Shown here: positions 6,795 to 45,626 of the stretch, piece after piece
Numbering within the stretch: the stretch's first letter is position 1
Layout of the letters: the number at the start of each line of letters is the position of its first letter
Assembly: GCF_001434115.1 (NCBI RefSeq)
Contig: NZ_AZDW01000013.1
Location: 124,001-188,000, forward strand
Length of the DNA stretch: 64,000 nucleotides
Direction of reading: 5' to 3'
Source of the DNA: Levilactobacillus zymae DSM 19395
GTDB lineage: Bacteria > Bacillota > Bacilli > Lactobacillales > Lactobacillaceae
Position numbers and translations under genes: made by a program
The notes under the pieces: model-generated
Told to the model about the DNA's origin: nothing
Databases searched by the model: none
Seen by the model: the letters and a program-made list of their open reading frames with translations, nothing else

Positions 6795-8084
6795 ATGGCG
6801 AAGCGACTGCTACGGATCTTTGGTCCGTTAATTCTCGCGGCGATTCTGGTTCTTGCGATTTTAGTATCACCGGTGACTTTCGGTTTTAAACACGTCAGTG
6901 CGGGTGAGGAACGACAAGCTGCCGTTTCGTTATCACCCAACGTTTTAAAGGGGAAACGCATCAAGGAAGCGGCCTTAAAGGAAAACTATGTCCCGTTCTT
7001 CGGGTCTTCCGAATGGTCCCGAATTGATCCCATGCACCCCTCGGTTCTAGCCCAAAAGTATCATCGGGATTACCGTCCATTTCTCTTGGGGGCGCGGGGG
7101 ACGCAATCGTTAACGCAATTCTTCGTCATGCAAAACATTCAGGGCGAATTGCGTAACAAGAAAGCGGTCTTCGTGGTTTCTCCGCAATGGTTTGTGAAGG
7201 ACGGGACCCGGAAGGATGCTTTTGCCTTCTACTATTCTCAACTGCAGACGGCAGAATGGTTATCCCATTACCGCCACGATGCGATTGACCAGTACGCGGC
7301 GCAACGGCTGTTACAGATGCCGGTTGCCAAGTCTGATCACTTCATCTATGCGGCGCTGCAACGCGTGGCCTCCGGGAAGTCGTTGACCGATTATCAACGC
7401 TTCTATCTGCGGACGAAGATGAACATGCTGACGCAAGAAGATCAATTCTTCTCCGGAATCAACCTCCCATCGCAGAATTGGAACAAGGTTAACCAGCAAG
7501 CAAAGAAGTTACCCACTCAATATTCTTATGCCAAGCTGGATAAACTAGCCGGTCAGATTGGTCAGGAACAGACGGGGAATAACCGGTTCCGGATTAGTGA
7601 TACCTTCTACAACCAAGGTCTGAAGCAAGAACTGAAGACCGGTAAGTTGCAAGGCTTCCAACGGAACTTAAGTTACACGCAGTCGCCGGAATTTGGCGAC
7701 TTCCAGTTAGTCCTTGATCAGTTTGCGCGTTTGAACACCAACGTGATGTTCATCATTCCGCCGGTTAACGACCGGTGGGCGAAGTACACGGGCTTGTCGC
7801 AGAAAATGCTGCGGCAGTTCGACCAAAAGATTCGTTACCAACTGCAGTCACAAGGGTTTAACAACATTTGTGACCTCAGCAGTAAGGGCAACGTGCCGTA
7901 CTTCATGACGGATACCATTCACTTGGGTTGGCGGGGCTGGTTAGCGGTTGACCAAAAGGTTGATCCGTTCTTAACTAAGACCCAGGCACAACCGAAGTAT
8001 CGGATTAATGATAAATTCTACTCGCAGAAGTGGCAGCAACTGGATCCAACGCAGTTAGCGGCTTACGAAGCGACGACGAAGTAA
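6795..8084 (+). CDS. dltD: D-alanyl-lipoteichoic acid biosynthesis protein DltD
   Basis: Membrane-anchored protein of 429 residues with one N-terminal signal-anchor (about residues 8-27) and an extracytoplasmic SGNH-like domain. It completes the outside step of teichoic acid D-alanylation. The nucleophile is probably the first Ser of GSSEWSR (about residue 71), and the catalytic Asp/His lie in TDTIHLGWRGW near the C-terminus; this assignment follows the family. Last gene of dltXABCD, closed by a terminator. A close paralogue stands alone at 44340-45626. Confidence 0.96.
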   Translation: MAKRLLRIFGPLILAAILVLAILVSPVTFGFKHVSAGEERQAAVSLSPNVLKGKRIKEAALKENYVPFFGSSEWSRIDPMHPSVLAQKYHRDYRPFLLGARGTQSLTQFFVMQNIQGELRNKKAVFVVSPQWFVKDGTRKDAFAFYYSQLQTAEWLSHYRHDAIDQYAAQRLLQMPVAKSDHFIYAALQRVASGKSLTDYQRFYLRTKMNMLTQEDQFFSGINLPSQNWNKVNQQAKKLPTQYSYAKLDKLAGQIGQEQTGNNRFRISDTFYNQGLKQELKTGKLQGFQRNLSYTQSPEFGDFQLVLDQFARLNTNVMFIIPPVNDRWAKYTGLSQKMLRQFDQKIRYQLQSQGFNNICDLSSKGNVPYFMTDTIHLGWRGWLAVDQKVDPFLTKTQAQPKYRINDKFYSQKWQQLDPTQLAAYEATTK

Positions 8085-8204: not shown

Positions 8205-10037
8205 ATGGACCTGGAAAAATTAAAGCAACATCAAAAATACATTCGGAACTTTTCCATCGTGGCCCACATCGACCACGGGAAATCGACCCTGGCGGACCGG
8301 ATTCTGGAAATGACGGATACGGTCTCGAAGCGCGATATGCAGGATCAGATCCTGGATAACATGGACCTGGAACGCGAACGGGGCATTACGATTAAATTAA
8401 ACGCGGTCGAATTGACTTACCACGCCAAAGACGGGCACGACTACGAGTTTCACCTGATTGACACCCCGGGACACGTGGACTTCTCCTACGAGGTCTCCCG
8501 GAGTTTAGCGGCCTGTGAAGGCGCCGTTTTGGTGGTGGACGCCGCCCAAGGGGTCGAAGCCCAGACGCTCGCCAACGTGTATCTGGCGTTAGACGACAAC
8601 CTAGAAATCGTGCCGGTCATCAATAAGATTGATTTACCATCGGCGGACCCGGACAAGGTCAAAAAAGAAATCGAAGACGTGATCGGGTTAGATGCGTCCG
8701 ACGCCGTCTTGGCCAGTGCCAAGCAGGGCATCGGCATCGAAGACCTCTTGGAACAAATCGTGGCCAAGGTTCCGGCGCCGAGTGGCGACCTGGACGCGCC
8801 GTTAAAGGCGTTGGTTTTCGATTCGGTTTACGATGATTACCGCGGGGTCGTGTTAAGTGTGCGGGTCTATGACGGGACCGTCCAACCGGGTGACAAGATT
8901 CGGATGATGAACAGTGAGACCGAATACGAAGTGACTGAGGTGGGCGTCAACTCGCCCAATCCGCTCAGCCGCGATTACCTGATTGCCGGTGACGTGGGTT
9001 ACATCACGGCCAGCATCAAGGACATTACGGAGACCCGAGTCGGGGATACCGTGACCAACGCGGAAGACCCGGCGGCTAAGGCGTTACCGGGTTACCGGGA
9101 AATGAACCCGATGGTCTACGCCGGGTTGTACCCCACGGACAACGCCAAGCTAAACGATTTACGGGAAGCCTTGGAGAAATTGAAGCTCAACGATGCGGCG
9201 CTGGAATTTGAACCAGAATCCTCGCAGGCCTTGGGCTTCGGGTTTCGATGTGGCTTCTTGGGCATGTTGCACATGGATGTGGTGCAGGAACGGTTGGAAC
9301 GGGAGTTTAACCTCGACCTGATCACCACGGCGCCGTCCGTGACGTACCACGCTTATTTGACCGATGGGACCATGAAAGAGGTCGAAAACCCGGCGGAAAT
9401 GCCGGAAGCCTCGGCCATCAAGAAGATTGAGGAACCCATCGTGAAGGCGACCATCATGGCACCTAACGAGTACGTGGGGGCGGTCATGGAACTCTGCCAA
9501 CACCGGCGGGGCCAATTCTTGACCATGGAATACCTGGACGATTACCGGGTCAACATCATCTACAACATGCCGTTATCCGAAATCATTTTCGACTTTTTCG
9601 ATAAGTTGAAGTCCAGTACGCGGGGTTACGCCTCTCTGGACTACGAAATGAACGGGTATCAGGAAAGTGACCTGGTTAAGATTGACTTACTGCTAAACGG
9701 CGACAAGGTCGATGCGTTGAGCTTTATCGCGCACCGCACGTTCGCGGCGCAACGGGGTCGAGAAATCGCCAGTCGTTTGAAGGGCATCATTCCACGGCAA
9801 AACTTCGAAATTCCGATTCAGGCGGCCATTGGGGCGAAAATCATCGCGCGAACGACCATCAAGGCCTACCGGAAGGACGTCACGGCGCACCTGTATGGTG
9901 GGGACCGTACGCGGCGGATGAAGCTGTTGGAGAAACAGAAAGCCGGGAAGAAACGCATGAAGGCCGTGGGCCGCGTGGATATTCCGCAAGAAGCCTTCAT
10001 GGCAGTTTTGAAGACGGACGAGGACGAAACGAAATAA
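8205..10037 (+). CDS. lepA: Elongation factor 4 (LepA), ribosomal back-translocase GTPase
   Basis: Translation GTPase of 610 residues, full length. G1 is AHIDHGKST (about residues 20-28), the switch is RERGITI, G3 is DTPGH and G4 is NKID. Domain II and the EF-G-like III/V domains follow, and the protein ends in the LepA-specific basic C-terminal domain ([18 protein letters not shown]). EF4 acts on stalled or mistranslocated ribosomes, especially under ionic or pH stress. Single-gene unit with its own promoter and terminator. Confidence 0.98.
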
Positions 10038-10279: not shown

Positions 10280-10888
10280 TTAGTCACCAACGTATTCAGT
10301 TGAAATTTTGTGCCAAGAACCGTTTTTGTACCGGTATTCGGTCAAGTAATCATGATGAATCCAATCCCATTCGTGTCTTGTAGGGATTAAATGACTGCCA
10401 TATTCAAAAATAACTTTAGATTTTTGAGTGGGACGGTAGTCAGATAGCGTCGAGTGATATTTTTTATCATAGTTTGTGTTCTCGGTGTAGATATTTTTCC
10501 GTGCCTCGATACGGTATCCATGGAAGGAATTATACTTTTTAGTATTGTGTGTACCAACTTTAAACCAATTAGATCCCTTAGCGCTCACTACGTAGGTGTA
10601 GTAACTATTGGAATTGAAACGTCCTGATTGTAGAACCCATGAAAAATCAGTTCCCCAATTCTCCAATTTGTAATGGCTTCCCTTAGGCGCTGTATAGGTT
10701 GCTACTGAGTAACTGTATGCTCTAGGCACAACATTTTTAATTTTTAAGATTTTTACATCACGAGTCATGGTAACCCAATGACCATATCTCCAAAATGGAG
10801 CACTAGCTTGTGCAGTTTTACTAATTGTAGTAACACCACTAAATGAGAACACTATAAGTGTAAATATTAATAATTTATGTTTTTTCAT
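10280..10888 (-). CDS. Secreted protein of unknown function
   Basis: A 202-residue protein with a clear signal peptide: basic KKHK start, hydrophobic core, and a likely AxA cleavage at TAQASA (about residue 30). The mature part is rich in Tyr, Ser, Lys and Trp, has no cysteine, and resembles the repetitive wall-associated modules of lactobacillar surface proteins (VTMTRDVKILKIK... GSHYKLENWG... KGSNWFKV). I see no enzyme motif. The ATG is preceded by AGAGGTAGA. It is the distal gene of three minus-strand secreted-protein genes and is 16 bp downstream of the 128-residue gene, so co-transcription is likely. Base composition is visibly more AT-rich than the flanking core genes. Confidence 0.8.
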   Translation of the reverse strand: MKKHKLLIFTLIVFSFSGVTTISKTAQASAPFWRYGHWVTMTRDVKILKIKNVVPRAYSYSVATYTAPKGSHYKLENWGTDFSWVLQSGRFNSNSYYTYVVSAKGSNWFKVGTHNTKKYNSFHGYRIEARKNIYTENTNYDKKYHSTLSDYRPTQKSKVIFEYGSHLIPTRHEWDWIHHDYLTEYRYKNGSWHKISTEYVGD

Positions 10889-10904
10889 AATCTACCTCTA
10901 TGAA

Positions 10905-11291
10905 TCAATAGCCGCCGTTAGCGTATCGGTAATAGTGGGATTTAGTAACTTTATGGACGGTTGCCATTCCGACTAAACGAATTTTATGGTATCCCACCTT
11001 TTTTAACTTCAAAGTGGGATAAATAGTATCTCCTAGAGTAAAGGTAGTGTGGAATCGATATGTTTTGCCACTCTTTGAAATACTCCTGATATGGTATGAA
11101 TAAACGTCGGCCTGTGGAGCTCCCTCGTGTAGCGTATGCTTCGTTAACCATAGAAGATGATTATCACCAATGTAGTATCCACGCATACTGTGTGGCGTGG
11201 TAGTAGATGCGGAAGCAATTTGAGAGAGACCGGTGACCGTCCCAAAAGAGGCCACTGCTAAAGCAGCCGCAAAGACTTTACTATTTTTCAT
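10905..11291 (-). CDS. Small secreted protein, P-x-S-(L/M)-R family
   Basis: A 128-residue protein with a signal peptide (KNSKVFAAALAVASFGTV..., likely cleavage after IASAS). The mature protein starts with TTTPHSMRGYYIG, comparable to TLPKALRGNW in the gene at 11466 and GTPKSLRKTW in the gene at 43551. It is then rich in basic and aromatic residues and ends KSHYYRYANGGY. No known domain is recognised. It probably shares a transcript with the 202-residue secreted protein downstream. The common N-terminal motif suggests a lineage-specific family of small exported proteins; the function is unknown. Confidence 0.8.
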   Translation of the reverse strand: MKNSKVFAAALAVASFGTVTGLSQIASASTTTPHSMRGYYIGDNHLLWLTKHTLHEGAPQADVYSYHIRSISKSGKTYRFHTTFTLGDTIYPTLKLKKVGYHKIRLVGMATVHKVTKSHYYRYANGGY

Positions 11292-11465
11292 TATTTCCTC
11301 CCACGGAATATGTACTCAGCTTTTAACGTCTTCGGGTGTGGACAAAGTGAAGGTGCGTTTTGTAATTGTATTTATTTAAGTAAATGGAATAATTAAAATG
11401 TTATCAATAAAGCAGAGAAATGTGATCCGATTAGTGACAAATTAATTTGAAAATATGATTGTTGT

Positions 11466-11873
11466 CTATTCGATAGCCTTATGGTGGCTAGTGAAGGTTA
11501 TATAACCCTTTATTCTAAGCGTATTTTTAGTTCTTTTAAAAGTATCAATGTGATAGTGAATGCCGCCCATGTCTGTTGTTGTGTGGACCTTATAAATTCC
11601 ATGTCCTTTACTTACGACATATCGCACCTTTTCAGGGCATGTATCCTGTTGAGTTCTTCCCGTCCAAAAGCTGTGTTTGGCTCCATGATAAATATCGGCA
11701 TTTTCGTAAGCAAAACTACCATGAATATATACCCAGCTGCGGTGGCGCTTCCAATTTCCCCGAAGGGCCTTGGGCAATGTTGAATAGACCTTTGCATTTG
11801 CGGTAACTGGTGTGGTTACTAGGATTAAACTAAGTGAGAGCATTCCTAAACCGATTGTCAAAATTTTTTTCAT
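11466..11873 (-). CDS. Small secreted protein, P-x-(S/A)-L-R family
   Basis: A 135-residue protein with a signal peptide (MKKILTIGLG..., likely cleavage at ANAKV). The mature start carries STLPKALRGNWKRHRSWVY, then a His/Tyr/Thr-rich region with repeated short strands (IYKVHTT, HYHIDTF, TLRIKGYITF) suggesting a small beta-rich or lipocalin-like fold; the fold is a guess. It lies 174 bp upstream of the next secreted gene on the same strand, so it may have its own transcript. AT-rich like its neighbours. No functional motif recognised. Confidence 0.78.
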   Translation of the reverse strand: MKKILTIGLGMLSLSLILVTTPVTANAKVYSTLPKALRGNWKRHRSWVYIHGSFAYENADIYHGAKHSFWTGRTQQDTCPEKVRYVVSKGHGIYKVHTTTDMGGIHYHIDTFKRTKNTLRIKGYITFTSHHKAIE

Positions 11874-12212
11874 GTTAGTACCTCCAAGTTATGTACAGTT
11901 AAAATATTATCACTACCGGAAATGATATAGTAGATTTAACATTTAAAAAATTGTTTATATTCAGAATTATAAGTTTGACTAGTGGTTCATCAGATCCCCC
12001 GGATTATACTTGAAGTTTTTAAAACAGATAAGAAATCTATTTAACATAACAAAAATTATATCAAGTTAAAATTGAATTTGCTCAGGATAGAGTTCAAGCT
12101 TGCAAGCGTTAGGCGAGCTTAGTAAACTGTACTTAAAAGCGTTGCTCTGATCAAGTTCATGTAAAACCGAGAATTGTGAATTTTGAAATGCCGGTATGAT
12201 GGGATTTCTTTA
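11874..12212 (+). other. AT-rich non-coding region, probable CRISPR leader
   Basis: About 340 bp with no credible gene, strongly AT-rich. The part next to the array contains a possible promoter: TTGTGA at 12174-12179 and TATGAT at 12195-12200 with 15 bp spacing. This would start transcription just before the first repeat at 12213. Its position relative to the degenerate last repeat fits a leader. Confidence 0.5.
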
Positions 12213-12362
12213 GTATTCCCCACATGTGTGGGGGTGATTCCACCTCTATGAAGTGATCTGCGGGTGTGCATACGTATTCCCCACACGTGTGGGGGTGATT
12301 CCGGCCATGAACGCTTCCTGTGGAATATCCACGCGTATTCCCCACACATGTGGGGGGAAACC
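12213..12362 (+). CRISPR. Type I-E-like CRISPR array: 3 repeats, 2 spacers, no cas genes nearby
   Basis: Repeats begin at 12213, 12274 and 12335, an exact 61-bp period. The repeat is 29 bp: GTATTCCCCACAC, then GTGTGGGGGTGATTCC, with a CCCCACAC/GTGTGGGG stem as in lactobacillar type I-E arrays. Repeat 1 differs from repeat 2 by one base (T for C at position 13). Repeat 3 has a changed 3' end (GGGGAAACCC), the usual sign of the leader-distal terminal repeat, so the array reads on the plus strand. The two spacers are 32 bp each (12242-12273 and 12303-12334). No cas1, cas2, cas3 or Cascade gene is present anywhere in the window. Confidence 0.93.
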
Positions 12363-12519
12363 CTAATTGTTATTATCATCCTGCTCGACGCAGATGGTTT
12401 CAGATAATTGAGTGACTGAACCCTCCGAACGGGTTGAGTGTCTAACCATGGCCCACCTTAACTAAGCTCGTTATAATGATCCTAATGTAACGGCGAACTT
12501 AGATTAGGGGGGAGAGCCT
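12363..12519 (+). other. Non-coding stretch with inverted repeat and possible -10
   Basis: Between the array and the next gene lie nested arms: ATGGTT..AGA with TCTAACCAT (about 12392-12450) enclosing AACCC/GGGTT. TATAAT at 12472-12477 is a probable -10 for the 90-residue gene, with no good -35. Confidence 0.4.
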
Positions 12520-12792
12520 ATGCTGGGGTATGTTCTAGGTCGTGATGGGGATATTCACGACTTTATTGAAACCTTAAAACGGGTGCACGGTGAGCTAGAG
12601 TACGATGAGATTCGACTAATGCGCGAGTTGATCGAGCTAACGGCCCATCCGGGAAACGTTGTTAACATGGCCGAGAAGCTCAATCTAACCTCCGTCGAGT
12701 TGAGTGACTATCTGCAACATCTCCGAGCCTGTGGGTTAATTGACTATTGGTCCGAAAAGTCTTCCAAACCGTTAAGTAAGTCTGTTATCTGA
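12520..12792 (+). CDS. Small putative winged-helix protein
   Basis: A 90-residue protein with no firm family match. The centre (residues about 27-78) looks like a winged-helix DNA-binding unit: a helical EIRLMRELIELTAHPG, then NMAEKLNLTSVELSDYLQHLRACGLI, which has the helix-turn-helix spacing of MarR/ArsR-type folds. It could be a small transcription factor, but this is inference from pattern. ATG 12520 follows AGGGGGGAGAG. Single-gene unit with a shared downstream hairpin. The surrounding genes are also small and uncharacterised. Confidence 0.65.
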   Translation: MLGYVLGRDGDIHDFIETLKRVHGELEYDEIRLMRELIELTAHPGNVVNMAEKLNLTSVELSDYLQHLRACGLIDYWSEKSSKPLSKSVI

Positions 12793-44021: not shown

Positions 44022-44339
44022 GATGAAAAACTCCCCGTAGATTAGCAGCTTTTTCGGTCGTCAGGATTTGGACCCCGTTAAGTATACCAGGAATACCGAC
44101 CACGCGATAGGCGCTAACTAGCGGGCTGACGGGGGACCGACCGAAAACTGAAAAAAGATTTAAGGTTAGGTGGGTGACTTTGCAAACCACATGCCCCGTG
44201 CTAACCTTAGAAAGGGAATTCGCCTAGGACCGATAACCGTGAGATGTGGGGGAACGGGGACCTGGGCACGAGGGGGAGTTAGCAAGTTGAAGCAATTACA
44301 AAGCAAGCTAGTCGCGACCAAATCAGGGGGGCGGGACTA
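44022..44339 (+). other. Intergenic region between secreted-protein gene and second dltD
   Basis: No gene seen. TATACT on the minus strand (44086-44081) may be the -10 of the secreted-protein gene. A 9-bp inverted repeat TAAGGTTAG (44161-44169) / CTAACCTTA (44201-44209) surrounds GTGG..CCAC. TTGCAA (44180) and TAACCT (44202), 16 bp apart, are a weak plus-strand promoter candidate. Confidence 0.4.
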
Positions 44340-45626
44340 ATGGGTAAACGATTACTACAGGTTCTGGGTCCCGTCTTATTGGCGGGAATTTTAGTGTTGG
44401 TCGTGCTATTTTCACCGGGAAACTTTGGCCTCAAACACGTGGGGGCGGGCACCGAAAAACGAGCGGCGGTATCGTTGTCCGCCAACGTTTTAAAGGGCGA
44501 GCACATCAAGCAGGCCGCCTTTCAGGGAAACTACGTGCCCTTCATGGGGTCGTCCGAATGGTCGCGGTTTGAACCGACCCACCCGGCGGTCTTGGCCCAG
44601 AAGTATCACCGCAACTACCGGCCCTTTTTACTCGGGGCGCGGGGCACGCAGTCGTTGACCCAGTTTTTGGTGATGCAAAACCTGCAGGGCACCCTGAAAA
44701 ATGGCCGGGCGGTCTTCGTAATCTCGCCGCAGTGGTTCGTCAAGGACGGGATGCGCCCGGACGCCTTTGCCTTCTACTACTCTCAGCTGCAGACCGTGGA
44801 ATGGTTACTCAAGGACCGGCACAGCGCCATGGACCGCTACGCCGCCCAACGGCTGTTACACCTACCGGGAGCCAAATCAGATCAGCTGTTAAAGGCGGCG
44901 CTCCACCGTACGGCGACCGGCCGGGCACTGACGGCACATCAGTTATTCTACTTAAAACTTAAACGGCAGTTACTGACGCGTGAAGACCAGTTCTTCTCGA
45001 GCGTCAACCTCCCGTCGCTTAACTCGGCGCACGTGGCGCAGCAGGCGGCGTTGTTACCCCGTCACGAGTCGTATCGGGCCTTGGATCGGTTGAGTGTGCG
45101 CTTGGGGCGCGAACAGACTAGCAATAACCGGTTTGGGATTCGGAATCAATTCTATAATCAAGGGTTGAAGAAGCCGGTTCGGCAGGGCAAATTGCGCGGT
45201 TTTCAACGCGACCTCGACTACACGCGTTCGCCCGAGTTTGCGGATTTTCAGTTAGTCTTGGATCAGTTTGCCCGCTTACACACTAATGTTTTATTCGTGA
45301 TCCCGCCGGTCAACGCCAAGTGGGCCCGTTACACGGGGCTTTCGACGACGATGCTCCGGCAGTTTGACCGCAAGATTCGGTACCAGTTGCAATCGCAGGG
45401 GTTCACCCACGTCTGTGACCTGAGTCGTCAAGGCAACGTGCCGTACTTCATGGCCGACACGATTCATTTGGGCTGGCGGGGGTGGCTGGCCATGGACCAA
45501 CGGGTGAAGCCGTTTTTGACCCAACCGCAGGCGCGCCCGCACTACCAACTGAATGATCAATTCTACACGCAGGCGTGGCAACAGCTACCACCGAACCGAC
45601 TAACCCAATACGCAACACAACGTTAA
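44340..45626 (+). CDS. Second DltD-like protein (stand-alone paralogue)
   Basis: A 428-residue DltD-family protein, closely similar along its full length to the operon copy at 6795. The first 76 residues align without gaps. The signal-anchor is at about residues 8-27. The GSSEWSR nucleophile motif and ADTIHLGWRGW with the catalytic Asp/His are kept, as is SPQWFVKDGMRPDAFAFYYSQLQT. It should therefore be active. No dltA, dltB, dltC or dltX is next to it; it has its own terminator. The duplication suggests a distinct acceptor or different regulation, but this cannot be told from sequence. Confidence 0.93.
   Translation: MGKRLLQVLGPVLLAGILVLVVLFSPGNFGLKHVGAGTEKRAAVSLSANVLKGEHIKQAAFQGNYVPFMGSSEWSRFEPTHPAVLAQKYHRNYRPFLLGARGTQSLTQFLVMQNLQGTLKNGRAVFVISPQWFVKDGMRPDAFAFYYSQLQTVEWLLKDRHSAMDRYAAQRLLHLPGAKSDQLLKAALHRTATGRALTAHQLFYLKLKRQLLTREDQFFSSVNLPSLNSAHVAQQAALLPRHESYRALDRLSVRLGREQTSNNRFGIRNQFYNQGLKKPVRQGKLRGFQRDLDYTRSPEFADFQLVLDQFARLHTNVLFVIPPVNAKWARYTGLSTTMLRQFDRKIRYQLQSQGFTHVCDLSRQGNVPYFMADTIHLGWRGWLAMDQRVKPFLTQPQARPHYQLNDQFYTQAWQQLPPNRLTQYATQR

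Follow-up and report, generated by a model that had tools for sequence, protein, structure and literature searches.

A short CRISPR array was found on the plus strand of the window, that is, the 64-kb stretch of Levilactobacillus zymae DNA analysed here (its genome is referred to as G000, and G001 and G034 are two sister species of Levilactobacillus). The array is genuine, and comprises three 29-nt repeats starting at 12213, 12274 and 12335 (start-to-start distances of 61 and 61) and two 32-nt spacers, with a period of exactly 61 bp. Repeat 1 (12213-12241), whose position 29 (C) was read as a PAM-derived base, is followed by spacer 1 (12242-12273), for which no source was found, by repeat 2 (12274-12302; 97% identity to repeat 1), by spacer 2 (12303-12334), which matches the 3′ end of lepA, and by the terminal repeat 3 (12335-12363), which is 79% identical to repeat 1 and has an intact stem and an altered 3′ end, its last seven bases being changed. 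These coordinates, together with the excess of the 21-nt core pattern of the repeat (3 matches in the window vs 0.02 expected from shuffling), bear out the first-pass annotation, which had described three repeats with this period, two spacers and a degenerate last repeat. Chance repetition was ruled out by the same period and core-pattern count, and chance membership in an unrelated repeat family by copies elsewhere that carry both the period and the leader; moreover, the sister species retain the period, the stem and the site. Each of the three repeats, folded alone, gave a 7-bp stem with a 4-nt loop, as did the repeat of the array on contig C43, in agreement with the type I-E-like stem proposed earlier, with folding energies just modestly better than those of shuffled sequences (z from -0.6 to -1.6). 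Palindromic 29-nt repeats, spacers of about 32 nt, a 61-nt period, a central stem, a common leader, a PAM-derived last repeat base and I-E effector genes in the genome all place the array in type I-E.

The leader (12150-12212, plus strand) is common to the orthologous arrays and to others, with about 60-65 bases conserved among arrays. A leader promoter had been suggested at 12174-12200, a stretch that does fall in this common leader, although a consensus scan lent it no support (0 sigma-70-like sites in 12000-12560). At the trailer end, a weak terminator-like hairpin (12351-12365, plus strand) was indicated by consensus scan only. At the leader-repeat junction (TTTAGT followed by GTATTCC), one GT is absent in the window array and present in both orthologues, those of G001 and G034. 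Among the genus arrays described below, those with a leader ending in TTTAGT had a median of 10 repeats (n=70) and the others a median of 3 (n=24, altered junctions that include leaderless arrays and one-base variants), one of 95 arrays being left out because its upstream DNA was short. The absence of GT at the window junction could be either a cause or a consequence of shrinkage.

Searches with Cse1 and Cas1 gave no I-E cas gene within the 64-kb window, in agreement with what had been reported for the surroundings of the array. A genome-wide search, which the first-pass annotation had recommended for cas genes and for a second array, placed the sole Cse1 match of G000 on C43 and the sole Cas1 match on C17, and recovered further arrays with the same repeat. 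The C43 effector operon (cas3-cse1-cse2-cas7-cas5-cas6e, by Pfam names) lies between dnaD and the start of an array at the contig end, which rules out a cas-less genome. It sits at the ancestral cas site, where G001 and G034 also have their I-E operons. Its neighbours dinG, aspB and dnaD show 95-98% identity to those of G001 and G034, whereas the Cas proteins show just 46-58%, indicating that the operon was swapped; a close donor was not found in 397 family genomes, where the best Cse1 identity was 57%. This swapped cassette (L038:5771-13324) has no cas1 adjoining. The Cas1 on C17 belongs to a type II locus (L034:4183-10297), in which a cas9 of 1351 aa adjoins a cas1 whose reading frame is broken by a TAG. 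Cas1e was not found in G000, whose assembly is a draft in 59 contigs, one of them ending within the C43 array. An effector operon elsewhere in the genome, together with the lack of a detected Cas1e, makes interference in trans plausible and adaptation not. The earlier suggestion that the array is served by cas genes elsewhere is therefore retained for interference, through the C43 genes from cas3 to cas6e, and dropped for adaptation. Judging from these gene contents, the window array may act in trans, and should not gain spacers; the Cas6e of the distant C43 operon, whose repeat has the same stem, could still cut its crRNAs. In the other genomes, Cse1 is in two pieces in G034 (C1:1710684-1713874) and contains a TAA in G024 (C34:18249-19790), so that some sister systems look damaged too.

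Repeat matches with up to 3 mismatches numbered 69 in G000, and nine multi-repeat arrays, each with at least 2 repeats, were found in the fetched stretches, with the following repeat numbers: 2 on C1, 2 on C12, 3 on C16 (the window array), 7 on C18, 3 and 6 on C27, 4 on C28, 6 on C46 and 39 on C49. Flank comparison revealed an orthologous array in G001 and/or G034 for eight of the nine, the exception being C49; this orthology refers to the trailer side only for the C1 array and to the leader side only for the C12 array. The site beside lepA carries 3 repeats in G000, 18 in G001 and 56 in G034. Similar differences between G000 and sister species were observed for C12 (2 vs 14), C18 (7 vs 24), C1 (2 vs 28 and 57), the C27 array at 73 kb (6 vs 28 and 33) and C46 (6 vs 15 and 14), whereas at C28 the G000 array is the longer one (4 vs 2). 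The C27 array at 77 kb has 3 repeats in G000 vs 39 in G034, and in G001 the leader-repeat junction alone was found there. Few spacers were common to two arrays: three pairs linked different species, and a fourth lay within G034. Given the 18 and 56 repeats at the same site in the sister species, the window array is best read as the shrunken leftover of a once long array. It belongs to a known kind, the type I-E array stump, and its import is in itself modest. The first reading of the locus as an I-E-like, locally orphan array, possibly a remnant, was thus sound as far as it went, and too narrow in that the array is one of nine and the stump of a long one.

The gene matched by spacer 2, lepA (8205-10037, plus strand; LepA_C and elongation-factor domains), lies in the same window. 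The matched stretch (9973-10004, minus strand) has the PAM AAC at 10005-10007, and its match starts 65 nt before the lepA end. Spacer 2 differs from the lepA 3′ end by 1 mismatch in G001 and in G034 and by 4 in G000, the AAC PAM preceding the match in all three genomes. The protospacer lies 2.2 kb from the array in G000 and 0.3 kb from it in G001 and G034, and spacer 2 is absent from the orthologous arrays of these species. Against its own lepA, the spacer is mismatched at position 1 and clean at positions 2-9, with one of the four differences in the seed, and all four are synonymous in lepA. Since 30% of the 32-nt windows of lepA differ from G001 at 4 or more sites, four mismatches in G000 are unremarkable, and no signal of selection was detected on lepA at the protospacer. 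Three small ORFs lie between lepA and the array (10280-11873), with signal-like starts judged by eye; the ORF at 10280-10888 had no Pfam match. Elsewhere in the window, a DltD-family gene (6795-8084) recurs 37.5 kb away as a diverged copy (44339-45485), with stretches 69-74% identical.

Searching both spacers against phages and plasmids, as had been proposed, returned no match for either, spacer 2 proving to match lepA instead. No match to spacer 1 was found in genus genomes, phage or plasmid searches, nor did 25 joined mini-array spacers match phages or plasmids. Exact matches in viral contigs were likewise lacking for two 19-nt stretches taken from spacer 1 and for one of 24 nt from spacer 2. 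For lack of a match, viruses and plasmids were set aside as the source of the mini-array spacers, with a weak contrast, since phage matches were also few in the long C49 array: of its 38 spacers, just s34 clearly matches phage records (L. brevis phages), and two more match portal-protein and antirepressor genes in other Levilactobacillus genomes. Spacer 2 would appear to have been captured from the chromosome adjoining the array.

The relationship between spacers and neighbouring DNA was analysed in 95 arrays from 25 of 35 genomes of the genus, identified with a repeat pattern that allowed 7 mismatches and therefore missed diverged arrays. Four of 1053 gaps between repeats were left out for their odd length, as was, during spacer extraction, one further repeat pair with a 19-nt gap; two spacers shorter than 30 nt were dropped from flank matching, and the last spacers counted were 93 instead of 95, one being lost to each of the two length exclusions. 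Repeat position 29 was C or T in 1027 of 1049 spacers. The targets searched were the array flanks and a 400-kb control from one genome chosen free of arrays, rather than whole genomes; a whole-genome search was made with G000 spacers only, and of its candidates 8 of 18 were scored in G000 and 8 of 9 in each of G001 and G034. At 6 mismatches or fewer, 22 of 1047 spacers matched array-flank DNA of the genus, and reversed spacers gave 0 matches. These matches were concentrated in the last, trailer-most spacers (18 of 93 vs 4 of 954 others, p = 1.3e-16). The corresponding figures for arrays of 3 or more spacers, in which the bias persists, were 10 of 66 and 4 of 945, with an AAY PAM in 7 and 2 cases, respectively; one-spacer arrays, in which the last spacer is also the first, made up 19 of the 95. 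One of the four non-last matches (G006 C7) was an artefact of an array that runs on at a contig end, which leaves 21. An AAY PAM accompanied at least one listed target in 15 of these 21 and the first-listed target in 12, and a tally compiled by hand assigned AAY-bearing local matches to 13 last spacers vs 2 others. In G034, 7 spacers matched the 105 kb of array flanks and 0 matched the 400-kb control. At 8 mismatches chance matches appear (17 with reversed spacers and 6 in the G034 control); at this threshold, 6 of 1049 spacers (one an artefact) matched the flank of their own array, vs 1 match among 4045 pairings of a spacer with the flank of another array of the same genome. For E. coli K-12, where three array pieces were covered with 19 of their 20 spacers, the best local match within 45 kb had 10 mismatches. 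Spacer 1 of C12 was rejected as a local case, its target being an integrase-family gene that in G001 lies some 45 kb away from the orthologous array.

For 20 of the 21 matches, the array carrying the spacer has flank DNA in common with the array beside the matched site (on the same side in 18), which indicates that the match is to the same neighbourhood. The flank match ran from leader side to trailer side only for G015 C5 and G017 C1, and there was none for G011. In 15 of the 21, the target neighbourhood was missing from the fetched flanks of the host itself or too diverged to align there, missing meaning no blastn match in the fetched stretches and, for C27 s2 and C1 s1, in the whole own genome. 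The targets include cas3 (G000 C1 and G024), cas1 (G015 C5, G017 C1 and G019) and cas6e (G007 and G031), as well as a LicD-family gene, an NADH:flavin oxidoreductase gene and lepA. Five hosts with cas-matching spacers are cas-less; three of them have the trailer flanks of cas-adjacent arrays, and two the leader-to-trailer correspondence only. Six of the 21 lack AAY. Among these six, G011 and both C46-locus cases are situated no more than 200 bp from an array, on that array's own strand, and may represent old array units or duplications of local origin. Local spacers in a non-last position were G000 C28 s1 (of 3), G017 C32 s2 (of 3) and G019 s4 (of 5). In G019 the own target persists, with seed changes at positions 3, 5 and 7, one of them shared with a sister, in a host without Cse1 or Cas1e.

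We propose that the window array is a shrunken I-E satellite array whose spacer 2 derives from neighbouring lepA, as one instance of a genus-wide pattern of local origin of the oldest spacer, and we assign to this reading a probability of roughly 0.6. The local terminal spacers are read as fossils of local self-acquisition, for which we infer the following mechanism. DNA around CRISPR loci would be the preferred self source for Cas1-Cas2, as the CRISPR locus is described as an acquisition hotspot in E. coli in the available part of one study (PMC12539621). Most self-spacers would be lethal, or deleted again via recombination between repeats. A self-spacer captured while the array had collapsed to one repeat would, on the other hand, become the terminal spacer, and would seldom be removed by recombination; terminal spacers are stable in this respect according to excerpts of PMC8047081. 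The way out of the conflict would then be for the target (or cas) to be lost, replaced or mutated, leaving the spacer behind as a fossil. The G000 C28 case provides a possible trace of this last step: the own target of s1 differs from the spacer solely at the PAM (AGC) and at positions 2 and 5, and a changed PAM with two seed changes, in a spacer otherwise identical to its own genome, argues for self-origin. The lepA case, in which a single difference of the four is in the seed, and the C46 cases show no such pattern. Points against the proposal are that the spacers could derive from incoming sister-strain DNA, that the lepA differences are ordinary and that the collapsed array is a hypothetical stage, to which are added the exceptions given above, namely the three non-last local spacers, the six matches lacking AAY, the G019 host without Cse1 or Cas1e, the one-spacer arrays and the want of a local match in E. 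coli K-12. A more far-reaching version, which we put forward tentatively and consider somewhat improbable as it stands, is that arrays were repeatedly reset and that each reset was sealed by autoimmunity, the first neighbour-derived spacer being locked in and its target, cas included, being lost or replaced.

The strongest competitor of local self-acquisition, which we regard as unlikely, is that chromosomal-type spacers came from transferred DNA of sister Levilactobacillus strains, the window array being an unremarkable leftover of a former defence against that DNA. Spacer 2 is indeed closer to the sister lepA than to its own, and the 15 targets not in the fetched flanks of their hosts are nevertheless present in another species. 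At the C27 locus, moreover, G000 and G034 hold alternative segments, each matched by the spacer of the other: a 2.1-kb segment of G034 (C1:1147514-1149658) holds the target of a G000 terminal spacer, and a 107-bp segment of G000 (C27:78461-78567) holds that of the G034 terminal spacer. A similar reading appears in the consulted sections of a paper on Gardnerella type I-E spacers (PMC3559282), although the same sections describe chromosome-type spacers there as spread almost uniformly in arrays. An origin in incoming DNA leaves unexplained both the proximity to arrays, evident in the contrast between flanks and control in G034, and the terminal position, and G000 C28 s1 sides with its own genome over G001 at positions 14, 26 and 29.

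A second possibility, to which we give still less credence, is that the cas-matching spacers of cas-less or cas-swapped hosts were selected to bar the cognate cas operon, the other local matches being incidental. Among the 21 local spacers, seven have cas3, cas1 or cas6e as their target, five of the seven hosts (G007, G015, G017, G019 and G031) yielded neither a Cse1 match nor a Cas1e above the cut-off, and the principle has been published for E. coli I-F orphan arrays, as portions of PMC5972030 and PMC2886076 indicate. As far as seen, however, the remaining 14 matches are not to cas genes, and they include the window array, where spacer 2 matches lepA and spacer 1 nothing, even though another array of G000, that on C1, matches cas3 of the sister species. 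Finally, nothing found requires the non-immune role that had been raised for the array, and a regulatory RNA, for example one that directs the effector to repress lepA, is very improbable: the AAC PAM and the mismatch-free positions 2-9 would suit it, but the match begins so close to the lepA end, position 1 is mismatched and orthologous arrays lack the spacer.

Since self-spacers are regarded as lethal and soon eliminated, natural evidence of their origin and of the outcome of the conflict is scarce. If the oldest spacer in many arrays is indeed a local self-spacer that has outlived its target, traces of former CRISPR autoimmunity could be read from ordinary genome collections, and a testable cause would be at hand for why cas operons are patchily lost and swapped; if arrays were also reset in this way, terminal spacers would be readable fossils of self-targeting and would themselves drive the loss of cas and the turnover of the surrounding genome. 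Beyond anti-cas work, the terminal-spacer pattern was unreported in the titles and abstract openings of the literature searched, in which subscription journals were thinly covered. As far as these searches show, the genus-wide pattern is apparently new and deserves a whole-genome test.

Among the closest known systems are the orphan arrays of L. brevis (PMC9204096). In the excerpts of that paper, there are likewise several arrays per genome, most of which have no cas genes beside them (31 of 127 had cas), type I-E is also among the systems, and the I-E PAMs differ from the AAY of the present arrays; shared leaders, positional orthology and a local chromosomal origin of terminal spacers, all observed or proposed here, are unreported in those passages. 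The short orphan I-F arrays of E. coli likewise lack cognate cas genes and, in the sections available (PMC5972030, PMC2886076), have spacers matching those genes; in contrast, the present arrays are I-E, their targets include ordinary neighbour genes such as lepA, and what links them is terminal position and proximity. The I-E spacers of Gardnerella vaginalis resemble those described here, in the portion of PMC3559282 consulted, in having AA upstream of protospacers, a first base of C or T in 97.5% of cases and many matches to the chromosomes of other strains, whereas chromosome spacers are almost uniform along the arrays there and mostly terminal and local here. The E. coli locus hotspot also yields self-spacers from around the CRISPR locus, and the part of PMC12539621 seen describes a laboratory setting with Cas1-Cas2 expressed, whereas the arrays of Levilactobacillus would preserve a natural record at the oldest position.
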